Assembly: GCA_001512965.1 (NCBI GenBank)
Contig: LFRW01000024.1
Location: forward strand, 1 to 64,000
Direction of reading: 5' to 3'
DNA: 64,000 nucleotides
Source of the DNA: Methanomicrobia archaeon DTU008
GTDB taxonomy: Archaea > Thermoplasmatota > Thermoplasmata > Methanomassiliicoccales > Methanomassiliicoccaceae
A program made the translations under genes and the position numbers. The notes under the pieces were generated by a model. That model did not search any database, was not told the DNA's origin, and saw only the letters and a program-made list of their open reading frames with translations. Of this stretch, positions 57,914 through 62,483 are shown piece by piece; position 1 is the stretch's first letter, and each line of letters begins with the position of its first letter.

Positions 57914-58219
57914 TCAATCCTTCAACCTTCCTATCGCAGGAAACCTCTCGAACACCTCCGCTCCATGAGGGGCCACGTCCATCTCTTCGGTCAGGTCATC
58001 GCCTGCTGCGTGGGCGAACTGGTGCTCCCCTCCTGCCCACAAGGGGCTGGAGGTGACATCGTATACGATCCCTCCATATGCCACATACATGGGATGACCA
58101 TCGCGGCCATTGTATGTGGCGAGCTCCCTTCGTGTCACCATCCTGTCTGGAACGCCGGTCTTGTCAGCCATGAGGTTGATAGGGGAGGCCCCGGCACCTA
58201 TTGTGAGCCAGACCTCCAT
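57914..58219 (-). CDS. Cytochrome b5-like heme/steroid-binding domain protein
   Basis: RRELATYNGRDGHPMYVAYGGIVYDVTSSPLWAGGEHQFAHAAGDDLTEEM; start may be at an internal Met. Confidence 0.82.
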   Translation of the reverse strand: MEVWLTIGAGASPINLMADKTGVPDRMVTRRELATYNGRDGHPMYVAYGGIVYDVTSSPLWAGGEHQFAHAAGDDLTEEMDVAPHGAEVFERFPAIGRLKD

Positions 58220-58234
58220 AATCTGAATTCAATC

Positions 58235-58258
58235 AAAGGGTTTTCGCATAAACCCTTT
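58235..58258. repeat. Perfect inverted repeat AAAGGGTTT-tcgcat-AAACCCTTT
   Basis: 9-bp stem between divergent cytochrome b5-like and rep-like genes. Confidence 0.9.
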
Positions 58259-58357
58259 CCAACTTTTTCTTTCCTCTCACATAGCCCCGAGGCCCTTCAA
58301 GGCACGCAGCGGGGTCTCAGGATCGAACAGGCGGCTAGAGTCTGGAGGTGCACTTAG

Positions 58358-59479
58358 ATGCGCCTCGCCCCCGCCCCGGGTAAGGCAGGAAATCCTTTCC
58401 AAACCTCTTCCCGGAGTCTATCCTCTCGAAACTCGCGTCTAGCGGCCTTACCCCACCGCGACTCGTCCGAACCTGCTAAGTGGGTTTACGACAACCCCGC
58501 TTTCAGACAGGCGTTCAACTCAGGACAGTTCAGTGTCAACATGGATAGAGCAGTGGCTGGGTTCTTCAATTGGCTATCGACAGACTACCTTCTTACCTTC
58601 GAGAACAAGGTAACGGGCGAAACGTTCAAGACGATCGGCCCCAAGAGGGGCAACAAACCGTATGCCAGGAGGAAATGGCAGAAGGTGAACGGCATCAATG
58701 AAGGCATGGACAAGCTACGGTTCGACTTCGACATAGCAGGCCATCGCCCCATCGTAAAGAACTGCCATATGCTCCTTATTACGACAACATTCGACCAAAA
58801 GGTTTCGATGGATGAGGCCTGGTTCAGTATCTCATCTCATGGGGGCGAGTTGAACAAGTTCAGAGCAAATCTTACCAAGATCTTCGGCTCCAAGGCCACC
58901 ATATGCGTTAAGGAGGCTCAATCCAACGGATACCCTGCCCCACATATCCTAGTCCTTCTCGACAGGCCCATCAGGGTAAGAAGGCACGCAGGACGAAAGA
59001 AGACCTCATGGAGACTAGAGTCAAAGGACACGCTCAAAAGAGTCAAAGGGGCGTGGAAATGGGGCTTCGTCGATGTCGAGGCCGTGGTCATGGCATCGAG
59101 TGGCAAGTATCGAGGTTACAGGACTCCTGTGAACTATCTCTCCAAGTATCTCACCAAGCACATGGACCTGACCAAGTATCCTGAGCTCCAAACGGTCAGG
59201 GGGATCGAGGACGTGCCCAAGGAACTAAGGACGCCAGTCTATACGCATGTCTGGAACAAGATACTTCGGTCCAGGGACTTCTTCGTTAGCAAGGCGTTCA
59301 AGCAGCGCCTCAACAACCCGGAGTTCAGGCCAGCACCGATTGCGGATGAAGCGACAGAAAGCGATTGGTTCCTGGAAAGCATCGAGATGGGCAACGGCCT
59401 GGAGCGAGCGCTTGCGGCGCAGCGAGCGAGGGGCGGAGGAGCTGCTACTGACAGCTCGTTAAAGTTGCCAGCAGGGTAA
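58358..59479 (+). CDS. Rolling-circle replication initiator (Rep)-like protein
   Basis: NGYPAPHILVLLDRP at the motif-2 position and PVNYLSKYLTKHM matching motif-3 YxxKYxxK; start may be at an internal Met. Confidence 0.72.
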   Translation: MRLAPAPGKAGNPFQTSSRSLSSRNSRLAALPHRDSSEPAKWVYDNPAFRQAFNSGQFSVNMDRAVAGFFNWLSTDYLLTFENKVTGETFKTIGPKRGNKPYARRKWQKVNGINEGMDKLRFDFDIAGHRPIVKNCHMLLITTTFDQKVSMDEAWFSISSHGGELNKFRANLTKIFGSKATICVKEAQSNGYPAPHILVLLDRPIRVRRHAGRKKTSWRLESKDTLKRVKGAWKWGFVDVEAVVMASSGKYRGYRTPVNYLSKYLTKHMDLTKYPELQTVRGIEDVPKELRTPVYTHVWNKILRSRDFFVSKAFKQRLNNPEFRPAPIADEATESDWFLESIEMGNGLERALAAQRARGGGAATDSSLKLPAG

Positions 59480-59582
59480 CTGGCCCGGGTCAAAGAGTCC
59501 CTTCCATAGAGCTGATGAGTTAGGAGTCAGGATTCAGATAAACAACCATTATTATCGTGAGATTCATCCACCCCCGATAAAA

Positions 59583-59984
59583 ATGAGCTCTAGGAGAAAG
59601 GCCAAAGTAGCAAAGAAGGAGGCGGCGTCAAAACCGGCGACAGGAGCGAGACGATGGAGAGAGCCCAAGTTCAAGATTGACCATGCTGAAGATATAGATA
59701 CTAAAGAAACTGGAGAGCTAGTGACCCGTATCGTCAACAGCAACCACATGAAATATAGATGCCCTAAGTGCGGAGGTCAGGAACATAGAACGGATATTGA
59801 CGAGTTCGAAGCAACGGTCTTCACATGTTCATCTTGTGGTGATAAACTGAATGTTGTCAATCCACTTTTCTTTGGTGAGGGGCACGACTGCATTATGGGC
59901 TATGCAGTTATCGAGGTGACGGATAACCCGAAACAGCCGTTCCAAATGCACTATTTCGGCTATGATCCTGGCTTTATGGCATAG
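59583..59984 (+). CDS. Zinc-ribbon protein of unknown function
   Basis: CPKCGG...CSSCGDK pair of CxxC motifs after a Lys/Ala-rich N-terminus. Confidence 0.65.
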   Translation: MSSRRKAKVAKKEAASKPATGARRWREPKFKIDHAEDIDTKETGELVTRIVNSNHMKYRCPKCGGQEHRTDIDEFEATVFTCSSCGDKLNVVNPLFFGEGHDCIMGYAVIEVTDNPKQPFQMHYFGYDPGFMA

Positions 59985-60114
59985 TCACTAGGCTACACAT
60001 TAGCTCGACTTGATAGATATTGTCCAAATTAAAACTCTACGAATATTACTTAATTTCAATTTATTGTTGAGAGTAAATCATATACGTTTAGAATCGGTTA
60101 TGCAGCACGATTGA

Positions 60115-60600
60115 ATGGCCCTATTGAACGAAGTAAAAGCATTGTTCGGAAACACTTATGCAAAGGGAGACCTCTTTGAGGATTACGTTAGGAATCTATT
60201 CCCAGATGAGGAATATGGCCTGGTTCATGCCACGCCAAGAGCTAACGATCATGATGGGAGAAAGATAGAATCTCGATTAATGCCAGATTTTCAATTTCGA
60301 CACAGAAGGACCAATCATCTGTTTTGGGTGGAATGCAAATATCGCGCTGATCTTTTCCGAGGAAAGTTACAATGGTGTGAACCATGGCAGCTTGAAAGAT
60401 TCAAAAAATTTCAGGAATCGTCTAGGCCAGCAAAGGTATTCATTGTCATAGGCCTAGGTGGAAAATCCTCGAAGCCGCACCAGATGTATTGCATCCCTCT
60501 CGATGAGATTCAATATCCGGGCCTATACCCGAATACGATAGCTCAGTATCTTAGACCACCAAACAATATATTTCGATACTCGGCAGGCCGCTTGTACTGA
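60115..60600 (+). CDS. PD-(D/E)XK-type nuclease-like protein
   Basis: GDLFEDYVRNLF, MPDFQFRHRRTNHLFWVECKYRADLF (PD...ExK), then QLERFKKFQ. Confidence 0.72.
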   Translation: MALLNEVKALFGNTYAKGDLFEDYVRNLFPDEEYGLVHATPRANDHDGRKIESRLMPDFQFRHRRTNHLFWVECKYRADLFRGKLQWCEPWQLERFKKFQESSRPAKVFIVIGLGGKSSKPHQMYCIPLDEIQYPGLYPNTIAQYLRPPNNIFRYSAGRLY

Positions 60601-61161
60601 AAGGTTTCAACGAGTTGCTTCCGGTAGTTTCTCAAAGAAAGATGCCTAATCATCTAAGGCGTTCTTCCATTAGTAATGATCAGGTCCACTTTGATACCTC
60701 AATTTCGACTAACTCTAAGTTAAGCAATAACCTTTATAATTATCATATGACATCTTCCCTTGCTCAAACGCCTTACCAATGTAAACACACATCCACACAT
60801 TGAAAAATACCACATTGAAAGTTGAAAGATTGTTGTAATCTGAAGAAAAAGATAGACCTGAAAAAGCTACACTGTTGATGCTTGGATAGATGGTCCAGCT
60901 CCTACCCAAGCGATTGTTGAAGATTTGAGGCATGGCCGTGCGCCCGGCTAACTCGATGATGGTCTGGATGCCATCGGGTAGGAGCAGGATCATGAAGTGG
61001 TCTATCAAGAAACACAGAGTCAATGTTCACCGGAGTTCACAAACATATTAGCGTGCGAACTGCCTTCTAGCTCTGAGGGTTCAAATGCTAGGCAAGGGCC
61101 TAGCGGCGGTAAGCCCTCTGTGGTCAAACGCAAGGCTGGCAGGAAAAGGAGGGGTCGAAGC

Positions 61162-62172
61162 ATGGGCCGATACCCCTTCCTGACCTGTGCTAAGAGGTTT
61201 CTCTCGGCAAGAGGACAGACCTACGCCGAGGCTACGGCCAAAGAGCTGCAAAGGAGATACAGGCGCATGGAGAAGGATCTGAAGATGCTTGTCGAGAACG
61301 GTAAGGCCACTTCGGCCAATCCGGAGAAGATGAGCGCGGAGGATGTCCTGGCCTACATCAACCTGTTGAAGTCAAGAGGGCTGAAGGAGAAGGCTATCGG
61401 CCACAATCTGACAGCACTAAAGAACCTCTTGGACTACATGGGCAATCCATCTGTCCAGAGATTCAAGGCAAAGTATACCTTCGCAGTTCCCAAGAGCAGG
61501 AGCCCCAGGCTCCCGGCGATGGATGATAGGGACTTCCAGACAATACTCAGAAAGGCGAGTTCGATAGATAGCCTGGACTGGAAGCGGCTAAGAGCCTATA
61601 CCCTGGTCGTCATGGCCCTTTGCACAGGCATGCGCAACAAGGAGCTTCGTCTTTGTCAGGTGTGCGACCTGCACATAGATGAGATGAAGGTTCGGGCGGA
61701 GCATGTCAAAGGTGAGGGAACTTACGGTCAGGCGAGAGAGATCGCCATCAGGCCGGAAGCGAGAGAAACGCTTGTCAAATATCTTAGAGCAAGGAACAAG
61801 TTGGTAGCGGAGCAGTCTCCCGGCAACCTAGCCCTATTCCCAGCCTTACGGGGCAAGGGTGACGGATACCTCTCTTCCAACGGTCTAGAGAACATGAAAC
61901 GACTTGTGGAGTCGGAGACGGGAATCAAATTCGACCTGAGGATGTGCCGCAGGACCTACGGTCAGAGAGCCATCGATGAGGGCGTTAGCACAGAGGCGGT
62001 TTCTCAGCTCCTAGGGCACTCCACGACCAAGACCACAGAGAACTACTACTGCCGCATGAGGCAAGACACGGCGATAAGGGAAGCTCACAACGTCTGGCAA
62101 GTGCCAAAGAGCTACCCAGATGCAAAAACCCCCAAAATTGAATCCGGAAGGTGGGAGCCTGGCTATGCATGA
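61162..62172 (+). CDS. Tyrosine recombinase/integrase
   Basis: N-terminal SAM-like core-binding domain; ALCTGMRNKELRLCQV, LRMCRRTYGQRAI, LLGHSTTKTTENYYCRM. Track ORF begins at 60997; Met at 61162 looks more likely. Confidence 0.9.
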   Translation: MGRYPFLTCAKRFLSARGQTYAEATAKELQRRYRRMEKDLKMLVENGKATSANPEKMSAEDVLAYINLLKSRGLKEKAIGHNLTALKNLLDYMGNPSVQRFKAKYTFAVPKSRSPRLPAMDDRDFQTILRKASSIDSLDWKRLRAYTLVVMALCTGMRNKELRLCQVCDLHIDEMKVRAEHVKGEGTYGQAREIAIRPEARETLVKYLRARNKLVAEQSPGNLALFPALRGKGDGYLSSNGLENMKRLVESETGIKFDLRMCRRTYGQRAIDEGVSTEAVSQLLGHSTTKTTENYYCRMRQDTAIREAHNVWQVPKSYPDAKTPKIESGRWEPGYA

Positions 62173-62483
62173 GAGTGCGGGGGGAGGAATGGCGCAGTAA
62201 GCCTTGCGGTCCTTCCCGCTCCATGAAATGACGACCTCCCCCTATGGCCGAATCACGATCCTACCGGTGCCTCGCCCAAGGCAAGCTCCCCTGGCATGCA
62301 GTTTCTCCAATTGCCGGGCGAATGGTGCATTGGATCGGTCATCCTAGCGCCTGATGGGCGCCAGTGCCGAAAGGTAGGCACGGCTCCACATGCACCACCA
62401 TCGCCCGGAACGGCCGCCGACGCTCAGGGCGCCTCTTCCGGCCGATGGCCCCCGGTATGCCTTGATGGGCGATGGGGAAGGTA

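Follow-up and report, generated by a model that had tools for sequence, protein, structure and literature searches.

What are four co-directional open reading frames (ORFs), together resembling a small plasmid or virus, doing between the genes of an archaeal chromosome, away from any tRNA gene? The window analysed here is a stretch of 64,000 nucleotides of Methanomicrobia archaeon DTU008 (order Methanomassiliicoccales; GenBank assembly GCA_001512965.1, contig LFRW01000024.1), lying on a 65,434-bp contig (contig 8) of a 1.76-Mb draft genome in 59 contigs (G000). A preliminary description had proposed that these ORFs, encoding a divergent or inactivated HUH-type replication initiator (Rep), a zinc (Zn)-ribbon protein, a PD-(D/E)XK nuclease and a tyrosine integrase, form a small integrated plasmid or virus beginning at position 58235. 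All four ORFs were found, and comparison with the congeners G001–G005 (with G000, a genus set of six genomes) places them in a complete integrated element at 58182–62187, with a unit of 3,999 bp. Taken as a whole, this element is, in our judgement, quite likely an integrative rolling-circle plasmid that arrived by recent transfer, lies at a secondary site and carries the cargo slot of a wider family. Its attachment (att) cores and genes are as follows.

58182..58188, no strand: attL core GGGGAGG, left end of the element; the segment common to G005 and G002 begins exactly here, and the host DNA to the left corresponds to empty sites
58358..59479, + strand: rep, predicted HUH-type replication initiator; single-His motif 2 KEAQSNGYPAPHILV and motif 3 YLSKYLTK; assigned from Pfam PF23343, AlphaFold2 and the family alignment
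59583..59984, + strand: Zn-ribbon protein, cargo or accessory; CPKCGG...CSSCGD; CpXC, expect value (E) 8e-9; homologue in the G002 element
60115..60600, + strand: small predicted PD-(D/E)XK nuclease, cargo; conserved residues, Hjc/RecU-like model, homologues beside Rep
60997..62172, + strand: tyrosine integrase (int); GMR...RMCRR...LLGH...TENYY; Phage_integrase, E 4e-13; the start may lie further inside
62181..62187, no strand: attR core GGGGAGG, right end of the element; the common segment stops here, and the host DNA to the right aligns with empty sites

Two other insertions and four empty sites, compared with the window copy, fix the ends of the element. A blastn block at 58182–62190 is common to G005, at 98.5 and 99.6% identity on two contigs, and to G002, at about 80–100% identity in the two outer thirds. 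The real left end, 58182, lies slightly before the start proposed earlier, and the right att core ends at 62187; the direct repeats sought at the flanks are the two copies of GGGGAGG. The flanks are of chromosomal type, as had been claimed, with a cytochrome-b5-like gene on one side and a SnoaL-like gene on the other, and these two genes are directly adjacent, without the element, in G001, G002, G003 and G004. When the outer flanks of the element are joined in silico, the resulting sequence can be aligned with the intact locus of these four congeners, and the element is therefore an insertion at a secondary site; the three bases AAT, lost at the joint of this reconstruction, make no difference to the outcome. 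Its genes are not core genes; Rep occurs in just three of the six genomes of the genus. The empty sites, the att repeats and the non-core genes, together with the match of the Rep model to HUH Reps, support the earlier proposal of an integrated plasmid or virus. Because the G005 and G000 elements are almost identical while the chromosomes share only 76.7% identity in the neighbouring gene region, the element must have moved recently between species. The elements of G000 and G002 match at their two ends, but between 59440 and 60700 their identity drops from ~90% to ~50%, which shows that cargo has been exchanged. The two G005 contigs with the element (L028 end and L078 end) overlap, yet disagree just after rep, where they match the window at 59480–59538 with 78% against 99% identity; this suggests two element variants with different cargo in the G005 sample.

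The comparison also identifies the site that this integrase would normally use. The Phage_integrase match and the catalytic motifs located in the last ORF identify it as a tyrosine integrase, and its counterparts in G005 (99% identity) and G002 (82%) are located at tRNA-Leu(UAA). In both genomes the right end of the element runs into an intact tRNA-Leu(UAA), and GTGCGGGGGGAGG is present at both ends of the G002 element; these alignments show the 3′ end of tRNA-Leu(UAA) to be the normal target, where a core of 13 bp is shared. The junctions of the window copy have only GGGGAGG in common. This copy is not in a tRNA: a tRNA at the insertion site was considered and rejected, no tRNA gene being found in the window. 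The tRNA-Leu(UAA) of G000 itself lies elsewhere (contig 47) and has GTGCGGGGGATGG in place of GTGCGGGGGGAGG, which is present in the tRNA-Leu(UAA) of G001, G002, G003 and G005; its core is altered from GGGGGGAGG to GGGGGATGG. The T-stem of this G000 tRNA (L099:1998-2083) is fully paired (ATGGG/CCCAT) where the congeners show a T-T mismatch, and the T-stem changes are those that destroy the attachment core.

Tyrosine integrases exchange strands within an overlap of 6–8 bp, which must match between the two partners. The integrase of the element would cut and join within the 7-bp core and require identity there; since the core of the host tRNA is no longer identical to that of the element, loss of this identity may have steered the element to the secondary site. 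Such steering is a reasonable inference from one case. For SSV1, recourse to a deviating site has been reported where the proper one is lacking (PMC8371274).

The Rep assignment draws on sequence, predicted structure and conservation. ORF1 matches Pfam REP_ORF2-G2P (PF23343) with E 5.4e-6 and 27.0 bits, 0.8 bit under the curated cut-off of 27.8. A sequence-level search of the PDB gave no convincing match, the family profile matching the Helitron Helraiser weakly (E 0.009). The AlphaFold2 model (predicted local distance difference test, pLDDT, 78) matches predicted microvirus initiators in BFVD with E 2e-6, and its best matches in the PDB are all CRESS Reps (geminivirus and circovirus type), individually weak at E 7e-3 and up; the model thus agrees with HUH Reps, as the structural comparison suggested earlier was meant to establish. 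Both motifs reported for this ORF, YLSKYLTK and PHILVLLD, are present. Among the 41 family members with readable motifs, motif 2 invariably takes the form KE(A/S)...GYPxxH followed by hydrophobic residues, with a single histidine in the pattern H196-U-I/L and no second histidine, and the YxxKYxxK of motif 3 is invariant (Tyr260, Lys263, Tyr264 and Lys267). A strict HUH motif has two histidines around a bulky residue (PMC6668415). Strictly, then, this is not an HUH motif, and it is by its modelled fold and motif 3 that the protein is classed as an HUH-type Rep. The earlier suggestion that the Rep could be inactivated was rejected, the second histidine being missing family-wide; because the whole family keeps this trait, over many genomes and copies, it does not reflect decay of a single copy. 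Glu186 and His196 may serve in place of the classical HUH pair, and Rep would nick an origin within the element via one of the two motif 3 tyrosines.

The window element belongs to a family found across the order. Matches to the Rep profile occur in 36 of 147 Methanomassiliicoccales genomes, with up to seven per genome, and 24 loci could be delimited by direct repeats of 12–33 bp (13 bp in L037). Most of these 24 elements lie at the 3′ ends of tRNA genes (tRNA-Leu, Lys, Ser, Tyr, Gly, Arg and Met), and the family has the fixed order att-rep-cargo-int-att, in which rep comes first, usually less than 300 bp from one repeat, and the integrase gene normally comes last, near the other repeat and in the same direction as rep; L039 has no recognisable terminal integrase. 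Cargo genes were picked by size for a scan with Pfam and PADLOC, by one or the other of which 13 of the 24 delimited elements (L034–L038, L138, L139, L141, L144–L146, L149 and L154) carry restriction-modification or PADLOC-listed genes. These comprise HpaII, CfrBI and MutH-type systems, MmeI and other type IIG enzymes, another type II pair, a GmrSD-type enzyme and the candidate pair PDC-M46. Ten flanking host proteins, a small control, gave no strong defence match. The remaining elements carry transport, radical-SAM, leucine-rich repeat or unknown genes. A Fic gene beside the Rep of L032 was rejected as cargo, as it is located outside the repeats, and was not counted. Tandem elements with shared att repeats at one tRNA gene occur at L034, L037, L137 and L141, and the tRNA-Lys elements L033, L039, L137, L139 and L142 carry a second gene for a tyrosine recombinase, which runs into or directly adjoins the 3′ end of rep. 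An attP-like sequence beside integrase fragments on contig 15 of G009 (L189, ~73815) probably represents the remains of a related element.

The fixed gene order bears on how the family might be expressed. Excision would give a circle with int directly upstream of rep, with ~185 bp from the int stop to the rep start, and rep would be readable through from int only in this free circle, as in the haloarchaeal virus SNJ2, where the circularisation junction creates a replication operon (PMC13107129). Because rep is first and int last, in the same direction, circularisation would always set int just upstream of rep, and from gene order alone we infer, by analogy, an SNJ2-like int-rep operon switch in this family. 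In the G030 element, at tRNA-Gly, the integrase is broken into three frames (L030:4686-5749), and this copy is therefore probably stuck.

Four further features lie at or near the ends of the element and upstream of int.

57914..58171, − strand: cytochrome-b5-like host gene, the insertion target; start Met at 58171; homologues begin at that Met, and the empty-site alignment agrees
58235..58258, no strand: inverted repeat AAAGGGTTT-TCGCAT-AAACCCTTT, ~100 bp upstream of rep; possibly the origin or an operator of rep
60890..60993, no strand: conserved non-coding hairpin directly upstream of int; may serve as an origin, as a regulatory RNA or in the control of int
62198..62210, − strand: motif reading TAAGCCTTGCGGT on the + strand, which belongs upstream of the cytochrome-b5-like gene and is kept in the G001–G004 empty sites

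The secondary site lies between the start codon of the cytochrome-b5-like gene and its conserved upstream motif. Sixteen codons of element sequence now precede Met17, the true start of this gene, and carry its ORF out to 58219. In the empty sites of G001–G004 the TAAGCCTTGCGGT motif lies ~25–40 bp from the start codon, and in G000 it lies beyond the element, 4 kb away; the insertion has thus probably separated the gene from its putative promoter. Within the element, the ~50 bp around the AAAGGGTTT inverted repeat show 88% identity to G030, against only ~59% for the Rep, and the repeat is confined to the close lineage and G030. No origin motif common to the regions upstream of all Reps was found, where only att repeats and tRNA sequences recur. 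The hairpin stretch, with 18-nt arms and an RNA fold z of −3.35, is 97–100% identical to that of G002, compared with ~85% for the int genes; as a known RNA family it was rejected, having no Rfam match.

The cargo of the window element consists of the Zn-ribbon protein, for which the family match (CpXC) agrees with the earlier assignment, and the nuclease. In the latter, PDF...ECK is present, and the model (pLDDT 85) places Pro57-Asp58 and Glu73-Cys-Lys75 in strands, in the PD...(D/E)xK arrangement, within a fold near those of Hjc and RecU (best E 6e-4); neither the profile libraries, Pfam among them, nor a sequence-level PDB search gave a convincing match. Across 13 homologues FE and PD are invariant and ExK is near-invariant. 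The nuclease family occurs in 26 of the 147 genomes and adjoins Rep in three lineages (G000/G005, G006 and G049); most homologues are found at a distance from any Rep, several of them close to a tRNA or integrase, and some have N-terminal membrane-like or zinc segments. One homologue (L176:4787-5503) has an N-terminal zinc-binding region, echoing the separate adjoining Zn-ribbon gene of the window. The predicted nuclease suggests defence, because the slot it occupies often holds restriction genes, and the nuclease, possibly with the Zn-ribbon protein, would be cargo most likely acting against foreign DNA. The same protein might instead assist replication, as a resolvase of Holliday junctions or branches that the plasmid carries to process its own intermediates. 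Its top structural matches, archaeal Hjc and RecU, and its position next to rep in three separate elements favour this role, yet most related elements lack this nuclease and have restriction-modification or other genes in its place (an HNH protein in G002), and the segments attached to some homologues and the distance of the majority from any Rep also speak against it. We regard a resolvase as a real possibility, though the less probable assignment.

The element as a whole would thus appear to be a self-excising rolling-circle plasmid with the nuclease as defence-slot cargo, and three other explanations have to be weighed against this. Were the HUH protein a mobilisation relaxase, the element would be a small mobilisable island without replication of its own; the HUH fold is common to relaxases and motif 2 is atypical here, but all matches are to replication initiators (PF23343, microvirus, CRESS and Helitron), motif 3 is of the YxxKY form and conjugation genes are unrecognised in the elements, so that we consider a relaxase unlikely. 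Descent from a pleomorphic or single-stranded DNA virus, as a reduced provirus or a satellite, would account for the proximity of the Rep fold to microvirus initiators, and integrated pleolipovirus-like elements are often found at tRNA sites; VP4-type proviruses are reported for Methanomassiliicoccales, as cited in PMC10919331. Against this, none of the four genes of the window element is of virion type, capsid, spike and packaging genes are unrecognised in it and in the scanned cargo of its relatives, the phage-record collection holds no relatives of the element, and Rep has no match among plasmid records or viral contigs. The plasmid reading is accordingly better supported than the viral one, which we hold to be very improbable. 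That the insertion away from a tRNA is an assembly artefact of a metagenome bin is suggested by the draft state of the assembly and by the presence of the same element at a tRNA site in a relative; however, both junctions lie on one 65-kb contig, four empty sites show synteny with the flanks, and the joins coincide exactly with a 7-bp core, which gives an assembler too little sequence to join on; such an artefact hardly comes into consideration.

Several observations nevertheless weigh against an integrative plasmid carrying a defence cargo at a secondary site. The Rep is without the second histidine that defines HUH, and the origins in the element are candidates only. An excised circle or attP junction (GAGTGCGG-GGGGAGG-CCCCGG) was not found in the assemblies or viral contigs, the two near matches to the attP sequence being attL of G002 and attL of G005; the junctions are known from a draft assembly of 59 contigs. 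The window nuclease matches no PADLOC defence model and its nearest folds are Holliday-junction resolvases, and the secondary-site argument is based on a single insertion. A joint and more far-reaching proposal, that a Rep lineage working with a single histidine and a conserved glutamate drives order-wide defence-carrying integrative plasmids, of which the window member has an undescribed Zn-ribbon/PD-(D/E)XK defence module and is escaping an altered host tRNA core, is put forward as tentative and rather doubtful in its entirety.

Methanomassiliicoccales are methane-producing archaea of guts and digesters for which few genetic tools exist. A native 4-kb replicon with an integrase and mapped ends, for which occupied as well as empty sites are at hand, offers a natural starting point for a vector, and the family shows a route by which restriction and defence genes travel within the order. 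The altered tRNA core and the secondary insertion provide a natural test of the core-identity rule for tyrosine integrases, and the single-His Rep family makes the dispensability of the second HUH histidine testable.

No description of the element family was found in the open-access literature searched, which omits most subscription papers, but several known systems resemble its parts. The REP_ORF2-G2P or microvirus-type HUH initiators (PF23343) share with this Rep the fold, the motif positions and the two-tyrosine YxxKY motif 3, and differ from it in the second histidine, which is Ile/Leu in all readable members here. The pleolipovirus SNJ2, a Rep-Arvir replicon (PMC13107129), likewise integrates by a tRNA-type tyrosine integrase and joins int to the rep end upon circularisation; SNJ2, however, encodes structural proteins, and its Rep is Rep_trans-like with a KHYYM motif, whereas the Rep described here resembles REP_ORF2-G2P and has YxxKY, in an element without virion genes. 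DUF7845 (PF25227) with KHYYM, which marks the Rep-Arvir/SNJ2 type, was not found, Pfam giving PF23343 only and the motif being YLSKYLTK. Secondary-site integration by SSV1 and lambda (PMC8371274) is alike in that the integrase turns to a deviating site in the absence of the proper attB; here, nothing but the 7-bp core is retained at the secondary site, and the host tRNA with the lost core can itself be seen. Also similar are the archaeal integrated plasmids and cryptic integrated elements (CIEs) with tyrosine integrases, such as those of thaumarchaea (PMC6563490; reviewed in PMC8371274), which are small, have short direct repeats at tRNA 3′ ends and carry an integrase and a replication protein; restriction-modification cargo occurs among them, and one thaumarchaeal CIE has a rolling-circle Rep. 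The present family differs from these integrated plasmids and CIEs in that one Rep family, one fixed gene order and a defence-rich cargo slot recur across an order, and in that its Rep is unmatched among the plasmid or phage records searched.

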